Part shown: piece after piece, positions 22,912-37,744 of the stretch
Position numbering within the stretch: the first letter of the stretch is position 1
Layout: the number at the start of each line of letters is the position of its first letter
IMG/VR virus record: IMGVR_UViG_3300028388_002907
Coordinates: 1-59,348 of that record
Source of the DNA: a virus
Length of the DNA stretch: 59,348 bases
Strand: one strand, 5' to 3'
Notes under the pieces: generated by a model
Database searches by the model: none
The model's input: only the letters and a program-made list of their open reading frames with translations
Told to the model about the DNA's origin: nothing
Position numbers and translations under genes: made by a program

Positions 22912-24687
22912 TTAGAGAGACTTAATGAATTGTTCAAAAAGGCGGCTTGCCTTTTCTTCCAATTCTTTCCTAGAGACTTTTGCAGTTTCCTTAATTTCTT
23001 CTTCAATCCTATCAAATTCATTTTGGACAGTCCAAGAAGATGTTGCAACGTCATATACCCATTCTACGTTTTCCATCACCCCTCTGACAAAAGCGTTAGG
23101 CGCACTCGGATCAGCAACAATGTCACCGGCTGTTGCCAGCATAAAATCTTCTTGTACCTCCATAAAGCCCTGAGAATTTTTCTTCAAGGACCCCAGACCT
23201 CTTGATGAAATTCCCAATTTCGATCCTTCGTCAATAAAATTCTTGACTATCTGTCCCATAGGCTGACTGGTCAAGATTTTTGCCTTTCCCACTACATTGT
23301 CACCATCTTCTTCCAGACTGATAAATCTGTGAGAAACCCTGTCTAAATTGATTGATGGATTACAATTACCGCTCCAAAAGCTATAACCGTTGTCCCTAGC
23401 GATAAAGGTTTGGTTTTCTACTTGAATGCAGTAAACCTTTCCCTCATAAGGCACTTTTTCAATCTTTAGAAATCTTGGGTCTAAATAAACACCTTTAGAC
23501 TGAATGACCTTTGCGAAATAAAGGGGTTTTTTATTTGCCTTTGAAATAACCCTATCAGCAAAAACGTAGTCATTTTCACAAATCTCCATAACCTTATTTG
23601 AAGCATATCCAGCTATAGAAAGAATTTGCGTGCAATCATCAATAAGTTGTTCGCTTGTTGAAAACATATCACATCTTACATATTTTTCATCAAATGTTCC
23701 TCTGCCATCTCCTAACACGAAATAGTCTAGGAAACCTTTTGCTGATTCTTTTCCGAATGAATCCATAAGGTCTCTTGGAACATATTTGTTATAGCAATTC
23801 CCTAAACCGTGTAGATATTCACCAAGCCTTCTATCATGACAACTCCACATGAGTTTTCCATTGCTTGAATACTCATGCCAATTGAATTGATTCATGTCAT
23901 TCACTAGGTCTCGTATAATATCAGCCTTGTCTCCCTCATTCTGGAAAACACTCACTTTATATTTGTTATTACAAACAGTTGTGCAACCTTCTGCTAGATA
24001 TAGTCCCATAAACTTGGAAAATGTTGCCATATCTATATCAACATCCTCCAAAAGATGTCTAGTTTTGTCTGAAACAAATTTCAGAGTATTAGAGCCTTTG
24101 ATTGTATATTTTTCTCTGGTTTCTGGCAATCCTTCATTACCTTTGGGGATATACCATTTACTGATATTGGTATCGCTAATATACTCTTTACCACTTAAAT
24201 GATCTTCTATTTGTCTAGCAGTAACAAACTTTTCTTCATTTGTTCTCTGATTTACCACCAAAAATCTGTGATCTGGTGTTACTGTGGTATCAATACCTCT
24301 GTTTTTCAGGCGTAGCATATTACCAGAGAAATCGTTCACAACATGGGTTTTGATGGTATGTATTTCTGTTCTACCATTTTTTCTGGTATAGACCTTTTCA
24401 TCACCATCAATCTCTGCAATACCTTTCCAACCGTCAGTTGTCAGGATTTCCGCTGTCTCTAAAAAGCATGGATGCCCCAATTCACCATGCGCGCGGTTTT
24501 CCTTTACGTACAGTTCGTTGTACCGCGCCATTTCTTTCATCAGAACATTTTTGGGATAGACTCTCCCATTCTTGTTCTTGATGTTGCTTTGCATGATGAT
24601 CCCTTCGATGAAATACGATTTGGAACCATCTTCATTACCTTCCTTGAGGTATGATACGTCTTCTGTCAATTCTTTGATTAGGTTCAT
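22912..24687 (-). CDS. 21: Prohead core protease gp21, interrupted by an in-frame intein
   Basis: 591 residues, of which 1-73 and 442-591 form a 223-residue T4-type prohead protease (T4 gp21 is 212 aa). It cleaves scaffold and capsid proteins after Glu during head maturation. The His motif G-E-L-G-H-P ends at residue 73. The presumed catalytic Ser lies in L-G-I-S-S-R-G-L-G-S in the C-extein (about 491-500). Residues 74-441 are a complete intein with a homing endonuclease domain. The protease is inactive until splicing joins H-P to C-N-P-S, because the His and Ser lie on opposite exteins. GGGAG precedes ATG 24687. Confidence 0.92.
   Translation of the reverse strand: MNLIKELTEDVSYLKEGNEDGSKSYFIEGIIMQSNIKNKNGRVYPKNVLMKEMARYNELYVKENRAHGELGHPCFLETAEILTTDGWKGIAEIDGDEKVYTRKNGRTEIHTIKTHVVNDFSGNMLRLKNRGIDTTVTPDHRFLVVNQRTNEEKFVTARQIEDHLSGKEYISDTNISKWYIPKGNEGLPETREKYTIKGSNTLKFVSDKTRHLLEDVDIDMATFSKFMGLYLAEGCTTVCNNKYKVSVFQNEGDKADIIRDLVNDMNQFNWHEYSSNGKLMWSCHDRRLGEYLHGLGNCYNKYVPRDLMDSFGKESAKGFLDYFVLGDGRGTFDEKYVRCDMFSTSEQLIDDCTQILSIAGYASNKVMEICENDYVFADRVISKANKKPLYFAKVIQSKGVYLDPRFLKIEKVPYEGKVYCIQVENQTFIARDNGYSFWSGNCNPSINLDRVSHRFISLEEDGDNVVGKAKILTSQPMGQIVKNFIDEGSKLGISSRGLGSLKKNSQGFMEVQEDFMLATAGDIVADPSAPNAFVRGVMENVEWVYDVATSSWTVQNEFDRIEEEIKETAKVSRKELEEKASRLFEQFIKSL
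23365..24468 (-). other. Full-length LAGLIDADG intein in gp21
   Basis: 368 codons, from Cys1 (C-F-L-E-T-A-E-I-L-T) to terminal Asn (F-W-S-G-N), with +1 Cys. Block B is T-P-D-H. Two dodecapeptide endonuclease motifs are visible: F-M-G-L-Y-L-A-E-G (about residue 227 of the precursor) and L-D-Y-F-V-L-G-D-G (about 324), each with its acidic metal ligand. Block F-like Y-C-I-Q-V-E-N-Q-T-F-I precedes the C-terminus. The penultimate residue is Gly, not His. The endonuclease is likely active for homing into intein-free gp21 genes. Confidence 0.92.
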
Positions 24688-24730: not shown

Positions 24731-26758
24731 TTATACCGGTGTATGTACTGTCCCTGCTAGGTCGATCCAACCATCACCAGCCGCACTACCTTGAGCATAT
24801 GCCATGATACCCCCCGATACATCTGTTATCCAAACAGATTTTCTGATGTGTTTTCCTCTGGTGTTAATCGAATGTGACACATCAAGAACATTGGCCTGAG
24901 TAACCTCGGAAATATCTCCGGGAGATTTGACTCTATACACTTCTTTCGCATATGTGTAAATCGTTGCGTCCGGCGCAGGAAGTTGTGTTGGGTCACGTTC
25001 AACCCTTAATCTAAGTGTTCCCGGACCCTGAAACGGGTCATCGTTTTTCATCATCATTCTTGCCCCATCAGCAAAAACGATATTATCCGTCAATACGTCT
25101 ATCGTAACATCTAGCCAAGTAGGAGAACCAACACCATTGTTGATAACAATGAAAAAAACATTGAGAGTGGATGGTGAATCCAAGGTAATGTGATTCACCG
25201 GAGGTATGTATAGCCCTCCCCCAACCACATCTGTGTTATCGAGAATAATGGAGGGCGATGCCACGGACCCTCCTAACAAGCTGTAAACATTTTCTTCTGC
25301 TACATATTGGACTAATCCGCCTACTGTTCCTACCAAAAAATTTTCTATCGGCATACAGTCCGAATTTGAGTACCAAGTTAATGTAGGCTCAAAATCGTTT
25401 CCATTTACATTAACCACTCTAGCCAAACTATCTGTGGCATCTCTCCTAATGACAATTCCTCTGACCCCAGTCTCACCGCCACTTAATATGAATGAATTGT
25501 TTACGGCTTTTGCGCCGCCCCTCAAGGAAGTTGTAATGTCTATTCCCACAACATCACTCATTCCTGTCAAATTTATCCTGTTGTTTTCGTATACGGACCC
25601 TATTGCACCAACTGATTTAATTCCTATATCAGCATGGCTACCTATGAAACAACCCGTTACGGTATTGTATTGTCCGTAGTCCTCAATTACAGTTCCCACT
25701 ACAGGAACACCCCCGTCTAGCGTAGTTTTATCGCCGTCTACACCTTCAACATATAGATTATCAACAAAGGTATCATTCGAGTATTCGCCCAGAATAACCC
25801 CCTTATCCACATGCGAAACTTGGCAATTTGATATACGGGTTGAGGTCATACCAACTCCACCACTAATCTCAGAAGCAATGTCATATGCGACACTAAACCC
25901 TCTGACACTAGTTTCCATAATAAGGAAAAGGCCCTGTGACCATGATGGTTTTACCCGTATTCCATAACCAGTCCTTGTTCCGGTTTCATCCCCACCTGCT
26001 GTATATGGATTGTCTATTGCGTGTTTGTTTATGAAAAAACATTCACTAATGATTCCTACTGGTGCATAATGGATATGGGCGCCGTCACCATCACCAAGTT
26101 GGTCAAATACAACTTGGTGGAATACGGCAAATTGACCACCTGATTGAATCATAGCCAATGGAACATTTTCATTTGTTGTTCCCACAATTCTCATGCTTTC
26201 GATGCCCCCACCACCATTCGATCCGGGGTCATCTCCTAAAATATCCGTATATGCCGGTACTGCGCCTGTTTCATCAAATTTCAGAATTGTTCCGTATAGG
26301 TTAAGTCTTGAACCAGCCTCTCCTGTACCCTTTCCAATCCATTTCCAAGTGCGATTTCTTGTTGGCCCGCCGCCACCCGGCCTTACGAATTGCCCGGACA
26401 TTCTATATACACCTTCTTCGCTGGATAACCACCAGCCATTGTCAAAGCTGTAATCTGCGGCCTGCTGAAATTTCGCAAGACAATCTTCTACACCTGTTTT
26501 ATCGGGATTCCATTGTTCTGTGCTGATAAATCCTTTTGAATCGGGTAGTGCTTTTAACAAAACACCATTAGCAGTCGATATGTGATCGTCTGACGATACA
26601 GCCGCCACCACTTCAAATTTGTATGCCCCGGCTTCCACAACGTCTCCTGCCGAGACAATTCGTTTAGGATCACCCTCAGAATACGACAATGTAGTATCAG
26701 CCGCTAATTCCTGCACAGAATCTAGAGTATATCTTGCTTTACCTATTGTTATTGGCAT
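24731..26758 (-). CDS. Tailspike-like beta-helix protein
   Basis: A 675-residue protein. Residues about 90-460 are rich in short beta-strand repeats with N-x-x-V, G-I-x-I and V-x-x-N patterns typical of right-handed parallel beta-helices of the pectate-lyase family. The N-terminal 80 residues look like a small attachment domain and the C-terminal 200 like a beta-rich receptor-binding or trimerisation region. Tailspikes bind and often cleave host polysaccharide, but no catalytic residues can be assigned here. It is the last gene of the fibre cluster, just before gp21. AAAAGGAAAAATT precedes its ATG. Confidence 0.7.
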   Translation of the reverse strand: MPITIGKARYTLDSVQELAADTTLSYSEGDPKRIVSAGDVVEAGAYKFEVVAAVSSDDHISTANGVLLKALPDSKGFISTEQWNPDKTGVEDCLAKFQQAADYSFDNGWWLSSEEGVYRMSGQFVRPGGGGPTRNRTWKWIGKGTGEAGSRLNLYGTILKFDETGAVPAYTDILGDDPGSNGGGGIESMRIVGTTNENVPLAMIQSGGQFAVFHQVVFDQLGDGDGAHIHYAPVGIISECFFINKHAIDNPYTAGGDETGTRTGYGIRVKPSWSQGLFLIMETSVRGFSVAYDIASEISGGVGMTSTRISNCQVSHVDKGVILGEYSNDTFVDNLYVEGVDGDKTTLDGGVPVVGTVIEDYGQYNTVTGCFIGSHADIGIKSVGAIGSVYENNRINLTGMSDVVGIDITTSLRGGAKAVNNSFILSGGETGVRGIVIRRDATDSLARVVNVNGNDFEPTLTWYSNSDCMPIENFLVGTVGGLVQYVAEENVYSLLGGSVASPSIILDNTDVVGGGLYIPPVNHITLDSPSTLNVFFIVINNGVGSPTWLDVTIDVLTDNIVFADGARMMMKNDDPFQGPGTLRLRVERDPTQLPAPDATIYTYAKEVYRVKSPGDISEVTQANVLDVSHSINTRGKHIRKSVWITDVSGGIMAYAQGSAAGDGWIDLAGTVHTPV

Positions 26759-26932: not shown

Positions 26933-27307
26933 TTACGGGTTGTAATGCCGAATGACCGCACTTGTCAGGGTGACAGTACCGCCAGACACAATGGACACGT
27001 CATCCAGATTAATGTCAGACCCCGTTGTTCCAACGGTCAAGCCGGTGATGCTTAAAGTGGCGCCCGAGTTATTGATTCGCGCTCCGTCCGCTGTGCCGGT
27101 GGCGGAAGCCGTGACGCTGCTGCTGGTGACGGCCAGAGTCCAGTCTGTGTTGCCCCCAGCCGAGGTCACAGTGCCTCCACCAGCGGTGAGAGCGAAGCTG
27201 GCAAGAACGGTCACGCCGTCCAGAATTTCGAGCGTTCCGCTTACGTAATCGTCTCTGGTCGCGGTCATACGTGATTCTTTGGTTCCTTCGGGATAGATAA
27301 TAGCCAT
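26933..27307 (-). CDS. Small beta-rich structural-type protein (124 aa)
   Basis: A 124-residue protein dominated by Thr, Ser, Gly and Val. It starts M-A-I-I-Y-P-E-G-T-K-E-S and contains short alternating strands (T-G-L-T-V-G-T-T-G-S-D-I-N-L-D), which suggests a beta-sandwich or beta-helix fragment such as a fibre tip or decoration protein. AAAGGAG lies before ATG 27307 and a CATAAATA late promoter at 27353-27360. GC content is visibly higher than in the core genes, like the fibre next to it. Function unassigned. Confidence 0.6.
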   Translation of the reverse strand: MAIIYPEGTKESRMTATRDDYVSGTLEILDGVTVLASFALTAGGGTVTSAGGNTDWTLAVTSSSVTASATGTADGARINNSGATLSITGLTVGTTGSDINLDDVSIVSGGTVTLTSAVIRHYNP

Positions 27308-27320
27308 GAAATTTCTCCTT

Positions 27321-27378
27321 TGGTGCTACTAATAGTTTTATGGTACTGCTGATATTTATGGTGCTGCTGATAGTGTAG
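27321..27378 (-). repeat. Three short direct repeats overlapping a late promoter
   Basis: On the plus strand the pattern TGGT-x-CT-x-CT-x-ATA occurs three times with spacing of 18-20 nt (TGGTGCTACTAATAG, TGGTACTGCTGATAT, TGGTGCTGCTGATAG). The late promoter octamer lies inside the middle repeat. This could be slippage or a protein-binding array. Confidence 0.45.
27353..27360 (-). promoter_or_regulatory. Late promoter before the 124-aa gene (CATAAATA)
   Basis: The minus strand reads CATAAATATCAG, 46 nt before ATG 27307 and overlapping the end of the 43-aa frame. It is the same octamer as at gp22 and gp23. Confidence 0.6.
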
Positions 27379-27487
27379 TTCCGTTGACAGTAAAGGCTCC
27401 ACTGAATCCTCCGTTCCAATCGGCAACGGAACCCTGATAAAGCGTGCCTGTGCCGGTCTCGTCTGTGATCCCGGTTGTGTTAATCAT
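27356..27487 (-). CDS. 43-aa frame that appears to continue the large fibre after a frameshift
   Basis: From ATG 27487 the product starts M-I-N-T-T-G-I and ends T-T-L-S-A-A-P. It contains T-L-Y-Q-G-S-V-A-D-W-N-G-G, typical of the last strands of a concanavalin/LamG-type jelly roll. The 1854-aa fibre ends in exactly such a domain, in a frame one base away, 8 nt into this frame. The frame extends upstream to 27541 without stop. It could be a separately initiated peptide (ATGATTAA overlap), or the true C-terminus of the fibre reached by a +1 shift. Confidence 0.5.
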   Translation of the reverse strand: MINTTGITDETGTGTLYQGSVADWNGGFSGAFTVNGTTLSAAP

Positions 27488-30400
27488 GATGCTGGTCAGG
27501 TCCATCAAAAGTACCAGACAGCGTAGCGCTGTTCGTCCCATCCGATACAGTTATCGTCCACGCCCCCGCATTACTTGTAAAGTCAGCGGTAATTGGTGTC
27601 CCTGTGGTTATTGCCGCAGGTGACATACTCGATGAAGCGAAGCCGTTGAATAGTGGTAGAGGCGCAGTTCCCTCGCCGTACCGAGCCAGCCGCCCGCCTG
27701 TCTGATCCAGCCAAGCGCCACTTCCCCCCAACAATTCACCGAACATAAACTGGTTGCCAGTCAGGTCGTACATCGACCCGGACAGGATGATGCGGAAAGT
27801 GTTGCCCGTTATGCCAAATCCCGACAAATAGTTGTCTGTGCCATTCAGGCGTACCGTGTCTGCGGAAACTGGCGCTGCAACCGTGCCACTGGCGATCATC
27901 GTATCTGGTCCGCTTTCCACGGCCAGCATGGACCCTGTTACACCCGGTCCCGTAACCGTGCCGGATGCGATCATCGTATCTGGTCCGCTTTCCACGGCCA
28001 GCATGGACCCTGTGACGTTCGGTATAGTCACAGTGCCGGATGCTATCATCGTATCAGGACCACCTTCAACGGCCAGCATGGACCCTGTTACACCCGGTTC
28101 CGCAAACGTGCCACTGGCGATCATGGTATCAGGACCGCTTTCCACGGCCAGCATGGACCCTGTGACGGTTGGTGCAGTCACATTACCGCTGGCGATCATG
28201 GTATCAGGACCGCTTTCCACGGCCAGCATCGTGCCCGAGATTGGTAGCGCGCCCCGCACATAGTCATAGATGCGCGCGGTGATCGAAGCCCAGTTATTCG
28301 TAATCTCGCTGTTGATGCCTGTGCCGCCTGCCGGAGTAAAGGCCGGTGCCTGTGCATCGAAAATGTAAGAATACATGATAGCCGCAATAATCAGATAGGT
28401 GTCGCTGAATCCGTGCGGGGCATTATCCTCAAACAGTTCACTGAATGGCACGTTGCCAAGCGCAGTATTTTCGTATGCGTCGATGAAAGCGCCATTCACA
28501 TCCATGTGCCTAATATCGAGCGCGGGATATGCGGCTTGCATGTCCGCCACGTATTCAGACCCCCACCCAGCGTAGCCATAGTACGGCGTTGTGGTGGTGT
28601 CCGTTGCCGCTGCGATCCAATCCGCGATGTTCTGTGCCGTAGCGCTGCCCGGCTCTGCCCCGCCTGTCGGGAGACCGAAGTCGTACAAACCTGTGTATAT
28701 CCAATGCGTTCGATTGGCGTTGGCGGCATTGGTCTGCCATGCGTCGATAAGTGCCGAGTTCAGGCTGACGTAACTTTCGCTTGCTCCGGGGATGCCCCCG
28801 TTTTCATTGGGCGCACGGTTAGCCGCCTCGAAGTTATCGTGGACAAATATCAGATGGTTGACGCTTGCCGCACCACTCCATCCTGTCATGGATAGCTGCG
28901 TGGTATCCTCCGCGCTGATTCCGTTCGCGGGCGGGGTTTGCCACTGGCCGATAAATCCAAACTCGCCTCCATCAAAGAACACACCCGGCGTTCCCATACG
29001 CTCTAACCAATTTCGTGCATCGGTGTCGGACCCACCAACACCGGCATCGTGGTTCATTAAGCTGTTGTGGTATGCGTAGAGGATCAGATCGTCAGAGCCG
29101 GGAGCCGTAACCGTGCCACTGGCGATCATCGTGTCTGGACCACCTTCAACGGCCAACATGGACCCTGTGAAGGTTGGTGCAGTCACAGTGCCGGATGCGA
29201 TCATCGTGTCTGGTCCGCTTTCCACGGCCAGCATCGAGCCGGTTACGGTTGGTGCAGTCACATTACCGCTGGCGATCATCGTATCAGGACCACCTTCAAT
29301 TGCCAGCATCGTACCAGTCACAGGCGTTGCGCCGTGACCATAGTCAATCATGGCTTCGCCTCGGCTGTACCTCATATACTGCTCATAGGCAGGTGTGGCA
29401 GGATCGGCGAGACCTTGGCTCAAGCCCCAGAAGCCATATCGGCTATGTTCCGTCATGCTGCCATAGAAGTTAAACGGCCCATCATTTGGCCCTGTTCCGT
29501 TCTCCCACGCATTGATCTGACGGCGTAGTGCGTCACCGTAATAGGTGCTTTCTACAAATCCGCTGAACAACGTCACCAAGTCTGTCAGGCGAGGATGTCC
29601 AGAGGGTGGAACCATGTGACCTGTGCCTTCGTACATCATTAGGTCAAGACCGCGTGTGGTCATGGCGCTATTCCACGATGCAAGCGTGGTGGTGTAGTCA
29701 CCATCTACCTCGGCAACATAGGCATCATAGATTTCACGATAGGCTGCCTCGGCGCCCTCTGCGTCAAATGTCGCTATCAACGTGTCGTGGTTTGTGTTGT
29801 CTTCGGGGCCGTAGTATTCTGTGAGAATATAGGAGGTAACACCAATGGCATCAAAGCTGTTGACAGGCGCATCGCCACCAACCGCCGCGATTATATCAGG
29901 CGCATCAAGGTAAGCATCCATCAGGCCAAGGTGTCCGAAGAAACCACCTGCGGTACGGGTGATACGGTTTGTCTGACCTGCGAATATTGTGGCGAAAATA
30001 TCCATGCACTCGGCAGCACGATATCCAGCCCATTGCATATATTCGTCGCCGCTGCTCGTCCCTAAAATTGCGTGGGCTTGTTCGCGTGCGTACCACTCCT
30101 GCGGGAATATGCCGTTCCAAGTCTCATTTGAATATTCAATGTAGATATGTAGCGCCGGGTTCAGCCGGTCACGGATCAGCGTAGCCATTTGCGTCACGTA
30201 GTCGTCTGTTGCTTGGTGCGGAATGCAGAACCAAGCATCAGTGCCGAGTTCGTTCGCAAGGTCAATGCAGACCTCCAGCGGAACGCCAGTGAAAAAATTA
30301 TCGACAGTTTCTTCTGCGGAGTAAGTTGCTTGATCTGGAACGTAGCGATCCGCCCAATCAACTTGGTTGGACCCGTTGGTTGCAGTCCAGTCCATGAACC

Positions 30401-33044
30401 GCAGCATTTTGAGGTCACTTAACCACGTCAGATACTCCGGTCGGATCACCGCGCCAGCATCGTATAACGCGGTAAGGTCTGTCTTGACCATGGCCACATT
30501 TGACGCACCAGCCGGTACTTGAATTGCGACAAGGCCAGTGACAACATTCGTTACCGTGACCTCAATCTCGTTGGGTCCTATGGTCGTTTCCGATAGATTG
30601 GTGCTGAGACCTGTCGGGCCGTCCCACGTAATGCGGTAGGTGCCTTCCAGATCGGTGCCGCCGCTGCCTAACTCGTTCAAGGTCACATATTCGGCGGTTG
30701 CGGTTGTCGGGTAGCCTAGGGCATTATAGCCTGCCGTAGCGTCAGGGGTAGTCCGCCGTGCATTCTTGAAGACGTTAATAAACGGGTAGTCAGGCTGGTA
30801 ATCCACGATGCCGTTGAGGCCCAGAGCGGCGATGCCTGTGGAGACAGGGTTGAACGCCCCCGGTGCAGTCACAGTGCCGGATGCGATCATCGTGTCTGGA
30901 CCACCTTCAATTGCCAGCATCGAGCCGGTTACGGTTGGTGCAGTCACATTACCGCTGGCGATCATCGTGTCTGGTCCGTCCTCGACCGCCAGCATGGACC
31001 CTGTGACGTTCGGTATAGTCACAGTGCCGGATGCGATCATCGTGTCAGGGCCGTTCTCAACCGCTAACATCGTGCCTGTGACCGGTGCAGTTCCAGTGAT
31101 TTCCAAAGTGCCGGTGATGGTCAGTGTGCGGGAATACTCGTCTTCGAACGTGAAATTGTAGCTGGCGTCTGCGGTCCACACCACGCTTGATATGGCTGTA
31201 AGAAGGCCAACACTGTTTACAGTCACGCCAGACGGCAGGGCGGGGGATACACTTTGATAGGTCAGCGTGTTCCCGTTGTCTGTGACATTGGCCAGTAGGT
31301 CTTGAGTACCACCTGTTCCCGCAGCAAAGGCCATATCCAATGCGGCACCAGAGGTTGCTTGTGTTCTTATAGCAGTATTATGTGAAGTTGTAGATGTTGT
31401 CTCGCGCCCGTATTCATCCTGTCCTGTGATAACGATTGTCCCATTCGACGCAGCCGTTGGTGTACCTGAAATGATACCGTTGGAGGCGATAGACACGCCA
31501 ACCGGAAGCCCTGTGGCAGTATAGGTAAGGGTATTTCCATTAGTGGTGAAGTCCGTTGTGGCGTCTACAGAGACCGAGGTATCATCCACAGTCCAAGAAA
31601 ATGGCCCAAGATTGTTGTTGGCGATTGCCTGAGTCCGGTAATTTGTCTGAATTGAGAATGTACTATCGGTAGTGCGTCCGTATTCGTCCTGTCCCGTGAT
31701 AGTGTAAACGGCAGAAGTCGTTTCTGTGTTTGGCGTACCGCTCAAAATACCGTTTATTGACAAACTCATGCCATTTGGCAGAGCCGGAGAGACAGAATAT
31801 GTCAAGGTATTTCCATTATCACTAAAGTCGGTGTATAAATCTTGGGGGGAAATAGCCGAATCAACAACAAAATCAAATGGTCCAAGAGTATTGTTGGCGG
31901 TAGCTTGAGTCCGGTAATTTGTCTGAATTGAGAATGTACTATCGGTAGTACGTCCATATTCGTCTATTGCTGTGATGGTGTATGATGTTGCGATGTTTTC
32001 ATCACTTGGCGTACCGCTCAAAATACCATTTGTTGCCAAACTCAAGCCGGTCGGTAGGGCCGGAGAAACTGTATAAGTCAGGGTGTTGCCGTTTGCAATA
32101 AAGTCCGTAGAAAGGTCTTGAGGGACAATAGCCGAATCAACAACAAAATCAAATGGTCCAAGAGTGTTGTTAGCGGTTGCTTGTGTTCTCAGGCCCACGT
32201 CATACAGCGCGGCAGAGATGGTTTTCCGTCCATACTCGTCTGTTGCCGTGCAAATGATCGTGCCACTACCCAAAGAAGTTGGTGTACCGCTTAGAGTCCC
32301 ATCACCATCATCAACAACACCTGTCGGAATTTGAGTAAATGAATATGTCAGGGTGTTGCCGTTTGCAGTAAAATCGGAAACAAAATTTGTGTTGACAAGG
32401 GTATCACCCAAAACATAGTCAATAGGACCAACGCCGTTTGCGGCGGTCGCTTTTGGTCGATACTCGACATTCCATGTAAACGTGTCCGTAGATATTCTGC
32501 CATACTGATCTGTCATGGATACTGTCGCAGTACCGCTATTCTCGTCGCCTACCGGGGTTCCGACTATCAGTCCTGTGTTTTCGTTAATCGAGAGACCGGT
32601 CGGAAGATTCTCAGCCGAATAAGTCCATGTGATACCAACGCCGGTTCCCGAAGCGTCAAGGGACACCACAGAATCATCTATCAACCAATTTTGTCCATCT
32701 GGTATTTCTGAGGGGCTGCCTGCCTCAATTCTGATAGGCACACCTCTGGAATATGTCTCGCCCTGATCTGTTACCGTCAAGTACAGGATTTCCCCATCAT
32801 GTGCCGAATAGTCTGTAGGAGCCGCGCCCGTGCCAAACGTAGAATCACCAACAGAAAGGCCCCATTGGACACTTTCTGTCCCGTTGTCGGGAATTATGGT
32901 GTATCCAAGTGATGCGTGCGCTCCGGGCCTTGCTTCTCCACCAGCTAAATTGGTCACATAAAACCGAAAGAGTTTAGATTTCCCTCTCGGTGAAACATTA
33001 CTGAGAATAGATGATAGTTGTTTGCTGAATGGACTTTTTGACAT
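27480..33044 (-). CDS. Giant modular fibre/adhesin with Ig-like repeats and two enzyme-like domains
   Basis: 1854 residues. Residues 1-106 are a beta-rich N-terminal (probably virion-attachment) region. About 107-650 hold six He_PIG/cadherin-like modules of about 90 residues (P-T-G-L-S-x-x-x-x-G-x-x-x-G-T-P, then D-E-Y-G-R). Cluster A of 25-residue repeats spans 657-731. About 732-1243 looks like a clan GH-A-type glycoside hydrolase barrel, with S-N-E-T-W-N near 970 and M-Y-E-G near 1140 as possible acid/base and nucleophile. Cluster B is 1244-1318. About 1319-1603 resembles an SGNH hydrolase (N-S-L near 1328, D-x-x-H near 1541). Cluster C is 1604-1728, followed by a truncated jelly-roll. A host-polysaccharide-degrading receptor protein is inferred. 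Confidence 0.75.
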   Translation of the reverse strand: MSKSPFSKQLSSILSNVSPRGKSKLFRFYVTNLAGGEARPGAHASLGYTIIPDNGTESVQWGLSVGDSTFGTGAAPTDYSAHDGEILYLTVTDQGETYSRGVPIRIEAGSPSEIPDGQNWLIDDSVVSLDASGTGVGITWTYSAENLPTGLSINENTGLIVGTPVGDENSGTATVSMTDQYGRISTDTFTWNVEYRPKATAANGVGPIDYVLGDTLVNTNFVSDFTANGNTLTYSFTQIPTGVVDDGDGTLSGTPTSLGSGTIICTATDEYGRKTISAALYDVGLRTQATANNTLGPFDFVVDSAIVPQDLSTDFIANGNTLTYTVSPALPTGLSLATNGILSGTPSDENIATSYTITAIDEYGRTTDSTFSIQTNYRTQATANNTLGPFDFVVDSAISPQDLYTDFSDNGNTLTYSVSPALPNGMSLSINGILSGTPNTETTSAVYTITGQDEYGRTTDSTFSIQTNYRTQAIANNNLGPFSWTVDDTSVSVDATTDFTTNGNTLTYTATGLPVGVSIASNGIISGTPTAASNGTIVITGQDEYGRETTSTTSHNTAIRTQATSGAALDMAFAAGTGGTQDLLANVTDNGNTLTYQSVSPALPSGVTVNSVGLLTAISSVVWTADASYNFTFEDEYSRTLTITGTLEITGTAPVTGTMLAVENGPDTMIASGTVTIPNVTGSMLAVEDGPDTMIASGNVTAPTVTGSMLAIEGGPDTMIASGTVTAPGAFNPVSTGIAALGLNGIVDYQPDYPFINVFKNARRTTPDATAGYNALGYPTTATAEYVTLNELGSGGTDLEGTYRITWDGPTGLSTNLSETTIGPNEIEVTVTNVVTGLVAIQVPAGASNVAMVKTDLTALYDAGAVIRPEYLTWLSDLKMLRFMDWTATNGSNQVDWADRYVPDQATYSAEETVDNFFTGVPLEVCIDLANELGTDAWFCIPHQATDDYVTQMATLIRDRLNPALHIYIEYSNETWNGIFPQEWYAREQAHAILGTSSGDEYMQWAGYRAAECMDIFATIFAGQTNRITRTAGGFFGHLGLMDAYLDAPDIIAAVGGDAPVNSFDAIGVTSYILTEYYGPEDNTNHDTLIATFDAEGAEAAYREIYDAYVAEVDGDYTTTLASWNSAMTTRGLDLMMYEGTGHMVPPSGHPRLTDLVTLFSGFVESTYYGDALRRQINAWENGTGPNDGPFNFYGSMTEHSRYGFWGLSQGLADPATPAYEQYMRYSRGEAMIDYGHGATPVTGTMLAIEGGPDTMIASGNVTAPTVTGSMLAVESGPDTMIASGTVTAPTFTGSMLAVEGGPDTMIASGTVTAPGSDDLILYAYHNSLMNHDAGVGGSDTDARNWLERMGTPGVFFDGGEFGFIGQWQTPPANGISAEDTTQLSMTGWSGAASVNHLIFVHDNFEAANRAPNENGGIPGASESYVSLNSALIDAWQTNAANANRTHWIYTGLYDFGLPTGGAEPGSATAQNIADWIAAATDTTTTPYYGYAGWGSEYVADMQAAYPALDIRHMDVNGAFIDAYENTALGNVPFSELFEDNAPHGFSDTYLIIAAIMYSYIFDAQAPAFTPAGGTGINSEITNNWASITARIYDYVRGALPISGTMLAVESGPDTMIASGNVTAPTVTGSMLAVESGPDTMIASGTFAEPGVTGSMLAVEGGPDTMIASGTVTIPNVTGSMLAVESGPDTMIASGTVTGPGVTGSMLAVESGPDTMIASGTVAAPVSADTVRLNGTDNYLSGFGITGNTFRIILSGSMYDLTGNQFMFGELLGGSGAWLDQTGGRLARYGEGTAPLPLFNGFASSSMSPAAITTGTPITADFTSNAGAWTITVSDGTNSATLSGTFDGPDQHHD
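27861..28235 (-). repeat. Repeat cluster C: five copies of a 75-bp coding repeat
   Basis: Five tandem 25-residue units of the form G-S-M-L-A-V-E-x-G-P-D-T-M-I-A-S-G-T-V, each 75 bp. Copies are near-identical at DNA level, so recent duplication or recombination is likely. They form a linker between the SGNH-like domain and the C-terminal jelly roll. Confidence 0.92.
29091..29315 (-). repeat. Repeat cluster B: three copies of the 75-bp coding repeat
   Basis: Three 25-residue units of the same family, separating the glycoside-hydrolase-like from the SGNH-like domain of the giant fibre. Near-identity to clusters A and C offers sites for homologous domain exchange. Confidence 0.9.
30852..31076 (-). 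repeat. Repeat cluster A: three copies of the 75-bp coding repeat
   Basis: Three 25-residue units between the Ig-like stalk and the glycoside-hydrolase-like domain. The unit resembles repeat linkers I associate with alphaproteobacterial surface proteins, but that link is from memory only. Confidence 0.9.
31631..32180 (-). repeat. Two near-identical 276-bp Ig-like modules
   Basis: The sequence starting GAGTCCGGTAATTTGTC occurs at 31631 and again at 31907, a spacing of 276 bp (92 codons). Long stretches of both copies match almost base for base, including the segment AAATCAAATGGTCCAAGAG near 31871 and 32141. They encode the third and fourth He_PIG-like modules. Confidence 0.8.
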
Positions 33045-36253: not shown

Positions 36254-37744
36254 TCAGTATTTCATGTAGATTTTGTTTCCGCTGCTGTAGTACAAACGCA
36301 GTCCGGCGTTGATACTGTTTTGCTTCTCGGTGAGTTTTTTATCAAAGCCTTCAAAAAGCTTCTCTTGCTCTGACTTTCGGAACCTCAGCCTATGATACAG
36401 CTTGTCAGATTTTTTGTCGTAGTATGAGTACCCAACAGGCGTTTCGCCCATGTACGAAAATCCTATTGATTCAAAACCCTTTCCGTTTCCATGAAAACCA
36501 TCAACATAGGTGACTATCGGTTTACTGTCAAGATGCTTCTCGATGTTTTTCATCAATTTACCTAACCCGCCCACGACACAATATCCTAGTTTTGTTGCTA
36601 TTCTGTAAACCTCGTATCCTTCGTTTCCGAATCTGGCTTTAGAAAGCAGGGCGGCCATAAACACTTCACCATCATGCTCAAGTCCGAAGCATAGCTTTGT
36701 TCCCGTATAGCCTGATATGTGGTTAGCCTCAAAAAACCCCTTCATGTCTTGGGGGTTAAGGGTGACGAATTTTGTGTTTCGGGCATAGATACGCTTGCTC
36801 TTACCCAAGACATTATTGACCATAGACTGCACAATCTCAGACTGTTCCATAATCTGTTTATCTGTGAATTGGAGAAGCTTGATGCCCCTTTCTTCGCACA
36901 TTTTCCTTTTTTCGTAGTGCCGTAAATCAACCTTTGTGTGGTTCACGCTATGCCAAAAAAGTCCGTTTACTTCGAAGCCAACCTTTTTGCTCGGGATATA
37001 CACATCAATCTCACGGGGCCGTATTTGCGTCCTGTCGTTAATGGTCATATCTTCTTCCGAGACCATATCAATCAATTTTTGGTGGGGCACCGACACCGAG
37101 AATCTCTTTAGGTCATATGACCCACTCATTTTTTTGTGTAGGTAAGATGGGGAATATCCCATATCGACGCTCAGCACGGTAATCGGAACCTCTTTCTCGA
37201 TATGAATCTTGTAGATTTCGTCAAGGTCTGGATCAGTCAAGTCCTTTTGTGAATGGTGTTCGCCAAACGCAAACTTTCTGGGATTCTCTGAATGCCATTT
37301 TCTCACGGAGTCGAGATGTTTTTTCCTGACCTCATCATTCGCCATTGGGTTATTTTCGATCATACGTTTCCTTACATTTGAATCGGGTTTCCTATCCACT
37401 TCCACAAAAAACCCCCCATACATTTCATCAAAGGTCTGTTTTCTTTTTGCTTTGGTGGCTTCATCTACACACTTTGCGTTAGAGCATGTTTTTGAGAAGT
37501 CCTTCAACGACCTATGGTATTTCAGCGGCGTACCGCAAACCGTGCATGTTGGATTGGATGTATAGCCAAGCATAATAATTTTTACCCTATCCGACAACGA
37601 TGTGTCATTGGCCAAAAATGCACTGTCTCTCAGTATTTCCTCTCTCAGTTCATCAGACGCCTTTCGTTCAAGCCAAGGACTGATCTTGTCCTTGGCATCA
37701 TTGTAGAGACCTGCCCTTGATAGTTTTTTCTTTAGTGTGTCCAT
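36254..37744 (-). CDS. Free-standing homing endonuclease-like protein between gp18 and gp19
   Basis: 496 residues. An N-terminal zinc finger has C-T-V-C-G near residues 72-76 and C-S-N-A-K-C near 91-96. A helix-turn-helix-like region (S-V-D-M-G-Y-S-P-S-Y-L) follows. A Vsr/PD-(D/E)xK-like nuclease core has R-E-I-D-V-Y-I-P and V-G-F-E-V-N-G-L-F-W-H (about 245-265), then a C-terminal domain with G-L-E-H-D-G, Y-E-V-Y-R-I-A and T-Y-V-D. This layout matches large phage homing endonucleases that sit beside structural genes and cut the same site in relatives. No Shine-Dalgarno is visible before ATG 37744, and the gp18 terminator ends only 24 nt upstream, so expression may be low. Confidence 0.72.
   Translation of the reverse strand: MDTLKKKLSRAGLYNDAKDKISPWLERKASDELREEILRDSAFLANDTSLSDRVKIIMLGYTSNPTCTVCGTPLKYHRSLKDFSKTCSNAKCVDEATKAKRKQTFDEMYGGFFVEVDRKPDSNVRKRMIENNPMANDEVRKKHLDSVRKWHSENPRKFAFGEHHSQKDLTDPDLDEIYKIHIEKEVPITVLSVDMGYSPSYLHKKMSGSYDLKRFSVSVPHQKLIDMVSEEDMTINDRTQIRPREIDVYIPSKKVGFEVNGLFWHSVNHTKVDLRHYEKRKMCEERGIKLLQFTDKQIMEQSEIVQSMVNNVLGKSKRIYARNTKFVTLNPQDMKGFFEANHISGYTGTKLCFGLEHDGEVFMAALLSKARFGNEGYEVYRIATKLGYCVVGGLGKLMKNIEKHLDSKPIVTYVDGFHGNGKGFESIGFSYMGETPVGYSYYDKKSDKLYHRLRFRKSEQEKLFEGFDKKLTEKQNSINAGLRLYYSSGNKIYMKY

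Follow-up and report, generated by a model that had tools for sequence, protein, structure and literature searches.

A fibre-like protein of a T4-like phage pairs predicted glycosidase and SGNH-type domains that occur together in Rhodobacterales polysaccharide loci

The removal of acyl groups and the cutting of a sugar chain can reside on a single polypeptide. In the poly-N-acetylglucosamine system, PgaB carries a de-N-acetylase and a GH153 glycoside hydrolase (GH) domain, and cleavage requires an active deacetylase (PMC5933820). Among phages, fibres that deacetylate surface polysaccharide are established for E. coli phage G7C (gp63.1), Pectobacterium phage Possum (gp66) and the receptor-binding proteins of Klebsiella prophages (PMC9569702, PMC13123978). 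Enzymatic fibres and esterase fibres are thus already known. Here we describe an 1854-amino-acid (aa) fibre-like open reading frame (ORF) from a 59,348-nucleotide stretch, referred to as the window, of the 82.7-kb IMG/VR virus record IMGVR_UViG_3300028388_002907. What appears to be new, as judged from sequence, is a fibre in which an esterase-like and a glycosidase-like domain are paired and in which this pairing is mirrored in a host polysaccharide protein.

The likeness to PgaB, in which one polypeptide from an exopolysaccharide locus joins a deacylating domain to a glycosidase domain, is drawn as one of logic; the PgaB domains are assigned to other families (GH153, not SGNH) and PgaB works in export in the periplasm and is no phage fibre. 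The G7C, Possum and Klebsiella proteins share an SGNH-type or deacetylating domain within a receptor-binding protein but, unlike the window fibre, have no glycosidase partner reported in the portions of the sources at hand. Secreted SGNH-GH proteins of Rhodobacterales (e.g. loci L092, L093 and L101) contain the same two families and the same invariant residues as the phage fibre, differing from it in their N-terminal signal-like segment, their polysaccharide-type locus and their lack of immunoglobulin (Ig)-like modules and 25-aa repeats. We consider it likely that the window encodes a receptor-binding or adsorption fibre of a T4-like phage which deacylates and cuts a host surface polysaccharide by means of a captured, order-reversed host enzyme pair.

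In clan A, the 4/7 superfamily of glycosidases, the acid/base glutamate, usually preceded by asparagine, lies at the end of barrel strand 4 and the nucleophile glutamate at the end of strand 7. An earlier note on this DNA had proposed a clan A-like domain at residues 732-1243 with S-N-E-T-W-N and M-Y-E-G as a possible acid pair, and structure prediction bears this out. The AlphaFold2 model (predicted local distance difference test, pLDDT, 91.8; predicted template modelling score, pTM, 0.92) is a (beta/alpha)8 barrel with its strands in order and a beta-rich insertion between strands 1 and 2; N973-E974 stands directly past strand 4 (model residues 241-245) and E1139 within strand 7 (model residues 408-416). 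All 50 of the best fold matches in the PDB were clan-A-type glycosidases, including GH51, GH10, GH1, GH5, GH164, GH2 beta-glucuronidases and the P. aeruginosa structure 4zn2. With PslG (4zn2), GH51, GH10 and GH5 the domain has in common the barrel, an acid/base glutamate at strand 4 and a nucleophile glutamate at strand 7, but the similarity is a distant one of fold (TM score 0.3-0.4 over the query) with no sequence family match. With high confidence, residues 732-1243 are predicted to adopt a clan-A-type glycosidase fold.

Homologues of this domain were recovered from bacteria. A tblastn search of plasmids gave 25 records, mostly from Rhodobacteraceae and Rhizobiaceae, at 25-33% identity, with at least 80% of the domain covered in 13 of them; when bacterial genomes were scanned with an alignment, 582 stretches were confirmed, the best 80 of which, from Rhodobacterales, other Alphaproteobacteria and Cyanobacteria, form the set of bacterial GH loci analysed below. 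Across a 65-sequence alignment R156, N164, E244, N247-E248, W250-N251, Y346 and Y412-E413 (domain numbering) are invariant, as are the SNE[TV]WN and YEG motifs, and chance motifs were rejected as the source of the catalytic-looking residues because of this invariance. Neither the GH-like domain nor the SGNH-like domain that follows it had a sequence match in Pfam, NCBIfam, PHROGs or the PDB, and weak NCBIfam matches to DUF2756 and Tim17, far under their cut-offs, were rejected. The 65 homologues likewise matched no GH model in Pfam or NCBIfam; the family, lacking a model in both, may already be named in CAZy.

The second domain, residues 1316-1603, has good though not complete support as a predicted SGNH-type domain. 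The earlier note had drawn it at 1319-1603, and for both domains the limits it gave agree with those from homology to within a few residues. The serine it proposed in N-S-L held; the modelled strand order is that of SGNH enzymes and the signature residues are invariant, while the structural matches proved weak. S1328, G1366, N1404, D1540 and H1544 are invariant across 45 SGNH homologues. In the model (pLDDT 75.9, pTM 0.82), S1328 follows the strand at residues 5-9, G1366 that at 47-50 and N1404 that at 82-86, the last two lying in a part of low confidence (residues 38-104), and the Asp/His pair precedes the last long helices, as in SGNH enzymes. The top PDB fold matches were mostly SGNH and carbohydrate esterases, with a best E of 4.4e-3. 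A match to a curated profile is a sufficient but not a necessary sign of the SGNH superfamily; no Pfam GDSL profile matched the window domain, and Lipase_GDSL_2 was found in two of the 45 homologues (best E 3.5e-4).

The final block calls for a correction, since the invariant pair is spaced D-x3-H (D1540, H1544) and not D-x-x-H as had been proposed, and the Asp that makes a D-x2-H in most bacterial homologues is Asn in the phage. This exchange of the second Asp of bacterial D-D-A-P-H, along with the fact that activity of the phage domains is a prediction, could be taken to mean that both domains are kept merely as lectin-like, carbohydrate-binding modules of a fibre that binds without processing. 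We give this little credence: the candidate catalytic residues of both domains are all kept at approximately 20-35% identity, which would be unexpected for dead enzymes.

Evidence that the two domains belong together comes from bacterial genomes. The first SGNH homologue was a 315-aa Ruegeria protein, from one plasmid record, encoded near a polysaccharide export gene, and further homologues were found inside the bacterial GH loci. Of the 80 bacterial loci, 51 have an SGNH domain, of type 1 or type 2, within the GH ORF and five more have one encoded in an ORF close by; the cyanobacterial loci are without one. The two subtypes are homologous by profile comparison (hhalign 97.7%, E 2e-12). In Rhodobacterales both domains form one conserved secreted protein in the order SGNH then GH, the reverse of the GH-then-SGNH order of the phage fibre, and on a Paracoccus marcusii plasmid a GH domain, an SGNH domain, GH16 and RTX repeats share one polypeptide. 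The GH-like and SGNH-like domains are, on this comparative evidence, natural partners.

At the 43 fused loci carrying the phage-like type-1 SGNH domain, the neighbours include a polysaccharide flippase family (33 loci), a KS-AT-KR polyketide synthase (PKS; 30), GT4 (25) and GT2 (21) glycosyltransferases. Hence, the bacterial SGNH-GH protein very probably handles a surface polysaccharide or glycoconjugate. The conserved Rhodobacterales cluster of SGNH-GH, flippase, KS-AT-KR PKS and glycosyltransferase genes (L092-L170) is a candidate surface glycoconjugate locus in its own right, and a literature search for this cluster found no matching paper. Among cultured marine strains, Roseovarius mucosus DSM 17069 and Thalassovita gelatinovora carry the locus. 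A bolder proposal would make the two domains an obligate two-step pair for a Rhodobacterales polymer acylated by the neighbouring PKS, with phages repeatedly capturing the whole pair and the fibre stripping the acyl coat before cutting the chain; we regard it as quite improbable in this full form.

The pair also recurs in viral records. Searches by tblastn of 50,697 phage records found no match to the GH-like domain, the SGNH-like domain, the repeat linker or the fibre N-terminus, and scans of viral contigs were without a match for the GH-like domain as a single sequence and for the SGNH-like domain as a single sequence or a two-row alignment (A1). A scan with the alignment A2 located the GH domain at 80 loci in IMG/VR records. 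A terminase was above cut-off in 17 of the 49 IMG/VR GH-domain records searched, and some IMG/VR contigs with the GH domain may be bacterial; the count of phages was therefore limited to records with phage genes. A T4-type portal was present in six of 12 records tested, the window record among them, and the family was absent from 14 control genomes. The description of such a fibre as unusual for a T4-like phage must accordingly be amended, since several uncultured phages that have T4-type portals also carry the GH-like domain.

At least three further uncultured phages have the GH/SGNH pair itself. A 2225-aa protein with collagen repeats (L022:7807-14481), whose 285-kb record has a T4-type portal and a terminase, fuses the GH domain to two SGNH-like domains. 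GH and SGNH are adjacent genes in L071, whose record has a terminase, in L175, whose record has a capsid gene of the Phage_cap_E family, and in L012, a short record without a phage marker of its own; the GH match of L012 is the same as that of L013, which lies in the 285-kb record. The phage-like SGNH subtype is found in four viral records, and in three of the four GH is fused or adjacent; in L176 an SGNH domain and a terminase are present and the GH domain is absent. Elsewhere, L024-L047, drawn from many IMG/VR records, form a phage-only clade of stand-alone GH-domain proteins of approximately 500 aa, some of the records having a terminase and a T4-type portal gene, and a 1279-aa protein (L015:3223-7059) follows its GH domain with a PhoD-type phosphatase-like stretch (WDDHDYG).

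Large phage-only GH clades, a long window branch and the presence of the pair in at least four phage records might be read to mean that the pair is ancestrally phage, with bacteria having taken it or phages swapping it without recent host input. Such an origin seems unlikely. In the GH tree the window domain falls inside an alphaproteobacterial clade (Shimodaira-Hasegawa-like approximate likelihood ratio test, SH-aLRT, 96%; 39 of 44 rows bacterial; tree unrooted) and not with the cyanobacteria, and the bacterial gene, which is widespread, has conserved biosynthetic neighbours. The suggestion that the region came from a host surface protein is strengthened by the secreted Rhodobacterales protein that carries both domains beside polysaccharide genes; the direction, from host to phage, is one that we infer.

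Base composition speaks less plainly. A GC content above that of the core genes had been offered as a sign of acquisition, and the rise is present, but silent sites account for only part of it: another part stems from amino-acid composition, and 52% GC is also reached by the major capsid gene. At fourfold-degenerate sites GC is 0.56 in the GH domain, 0.62 in the SGNH domain and 0.42 in the Ig half, the mean of the other genes being 0.445 (standard deviation 0.066). Silent-site GC thus supports a foreign composition in the GH-linker-SGNH half only, and as a stand-alone argument for acquisition GC was judged weak.

The layout of the whole ORF is as had been read from the letters, with Ig-like modules and repeat linkers (Table 1). 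From the N-terminus, Ig modules are followed by three repeats, the GH-like domain, three repeats, the SGNH-like domain, five repeats and a C-terminal part; Pfam recognised six He_PIG stretches and nothing else above cut-off. The 25-aa repeat unit consists of TGSMLAVESGPDTMIASGTV plus a spacer, and its 11 copies form three arrays that frame the two candidate enzymes. Identity among copies is 89% as protein and 79% as DNA (median dN 0.08, dS about 1.0), which indicates that the repeats are old and kept by selection on the protein; they therefore probably serve as linkers and did not arise by recent slippage. The ORF ends GTFDGPDQHHD-stop, and a similar-looking Gly/Thr-rich stretch, TSIMINTTGITDETGTGTLYQGSVADWNGGFSGAFTVNG, lies in another frame just downstream (27300-27500, minus strand); the C-terminal domain may have been shortened through a frame change or an assembly error.

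Table 1 Features of the fibre-like ORF and its inserted block (window coordinates)
Feature	Position	Strand	Remarks
1854-aa modular fibre-like ORF (P0001)	27480..33044	-	ATG start, no internal stops
N-terminal region, residues 1-119, candidate virion-attachment part	32688..33044	-	
Six He_PIG Ig-like modules, residues about 120-651	31092..32687	-	Pfam E 2.2e-36
Repeat linker A, residues 656-725, three 25-aa repeats	30870..31079	-	
GH-like clan-A (beta/alpha)8 domain, predicted, residues 732-1243	29316..30851	-	homology and model
E974 codon (SNETWN, residues 972-977), candidate acid/base	30123..30125	-	
E1139 codon (MYEGTGH), candidate nucleophile	29628..29630	-	
Repeat linker B, residues 1243-1312, three repeats	29109..29318	-	
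SGNH-like domain, residues 1316-1603	28236..29099	-	
S1328 codon, candidate nucleophile (N-S-L, block I)	29061..29063	-	
G1366 codon, candidate oxyanion-hole Gly (block II, after strand 2)	28947..28949	-	
N1404 codon, candidate oxyanion-hole Asn (block III, after strand 3)	28833..28835	-	
D1540 to H1544 codons (D-N-A-P-H-G), candidate Asp/His (block V)	28413..28427	-	
Repeat linker C, residues 1603-1722, five repeats	27879..28238	-	
C-terminal part, residues 1728-1854, apparently shortened by frame change	27483..27863	-	
124-aa protein, same inserted block	26933..27307	-	PHROG 3758 'virion structural protein'
675-aa candidate beta-helix tailspike, same inserted block	24731..26758	-	weak NosD match

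Such an arrangement would display the GH and SGNH domains between flexible repeat linkers, letting both reach the polymer. The SGNH esterase would remove ester-linked acyl groups from the host surface polysaccharide, the clan-A glycosidase would then cut the chain, and the trimmed polysaccharide would let the virion reach the cell. The pair would derive from a two-domain secreted enzyme of Rhodobacterales surface-polysaccharide loci, its domain order having been reversed. We infer the catalysis, its substrate, the precedence of the esterase over the glycosidase and a location on the tail.

The record has terminase, sheath, tube, portal, protease, capsid and baseplate genes, which mark it as a T4-like phage. 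Its terminase is nearest to those of Sinorhizobium phages (52%), its capsid protein is 52-55% identical to those of several T4-like groups, and its host would be an alphaproteobacterium, probably one of the Rhodobacterales. The fibre gene is placed in the interval from portal to prohead protease, which spans 9.0 kb here as against 0.5-4.7 kb (median 1.3 kb) in 50 relatives chosen by portal. None of these 50 has a gene resembling that of the fibre, of the 124-aa protein or of the 675-aa spike. The longer interval, filled with genes that have no counterpart in the relatives, points to an inserted or replaced block of the kind of an adsorption module.

The same position, between head genes, lends itself to another interpretation, in which the protein is a head decoration like the T4 Ig-domain protein Hoc, attaching virions to polysaccharide or biofilm, and not a tail fibre. 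The six Ig-like modules would suit it, as would the 124-aa neighbour, whose PHROG is filed under head and packaging. We hold it to be somewhat unlikely, given that gene position is a weak guide, that a 675-aa spike-like protein (no PHROG match and a weak one to NosD) lies in the same inserted block and that the partly similar 2225-aa protein of L022 contains collagen repeats, which tail fibres often have.

Several points weigh against a polysaccharide-processing fibre of host origin. The gene has head genes around it, and the N-terminus showed no recognisable tail-attachment domain. The model of the SGNH domain is of no more than fair quality (pLDDT 76) and its fold matches fail a threshold of E 1e-3, and none of the homologues examined comes with a known activity or substrate. 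SGNH domains are common in phage fibres generally (PMC13123978), so that the type-2 pairings, taken alone, could be coincidence. Finally, the window GH branch is long (1.89) and the tree singles out neither a donor nor a direction of transfer; a transfer, if from hosts, would by this branch length be old.

Two neighbouring ORFs merit separate mention. The prohead protease (gp21-type) ORF at 22912-24687 (minus strand) appears to be interrupted by an intein, from CFLETAEILTTDGWKGIAEIDG to FWSGNCNPS, and its main PHROG protease match spans residues 444-590. Between the tube and sheath genes, a 496-aa ORF (36254-37744, minus strand) with a zinc-finger-like start is possibly a homing endonuclease.

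Taken as a whole, the fibre connects a receptor-processing phage protein with one specific candidate polymer of the host, and offers for testing two new enzyme families, both without a profile in the libraries searched. The partner proteins belong to the sugar-coat clusters of marine Rhodobacteraceae, and the phage has probably taken over its host's own coat-trimming tools. This suggests that phages copy the enzyme pair by which their hosts handle their own surface sugar.

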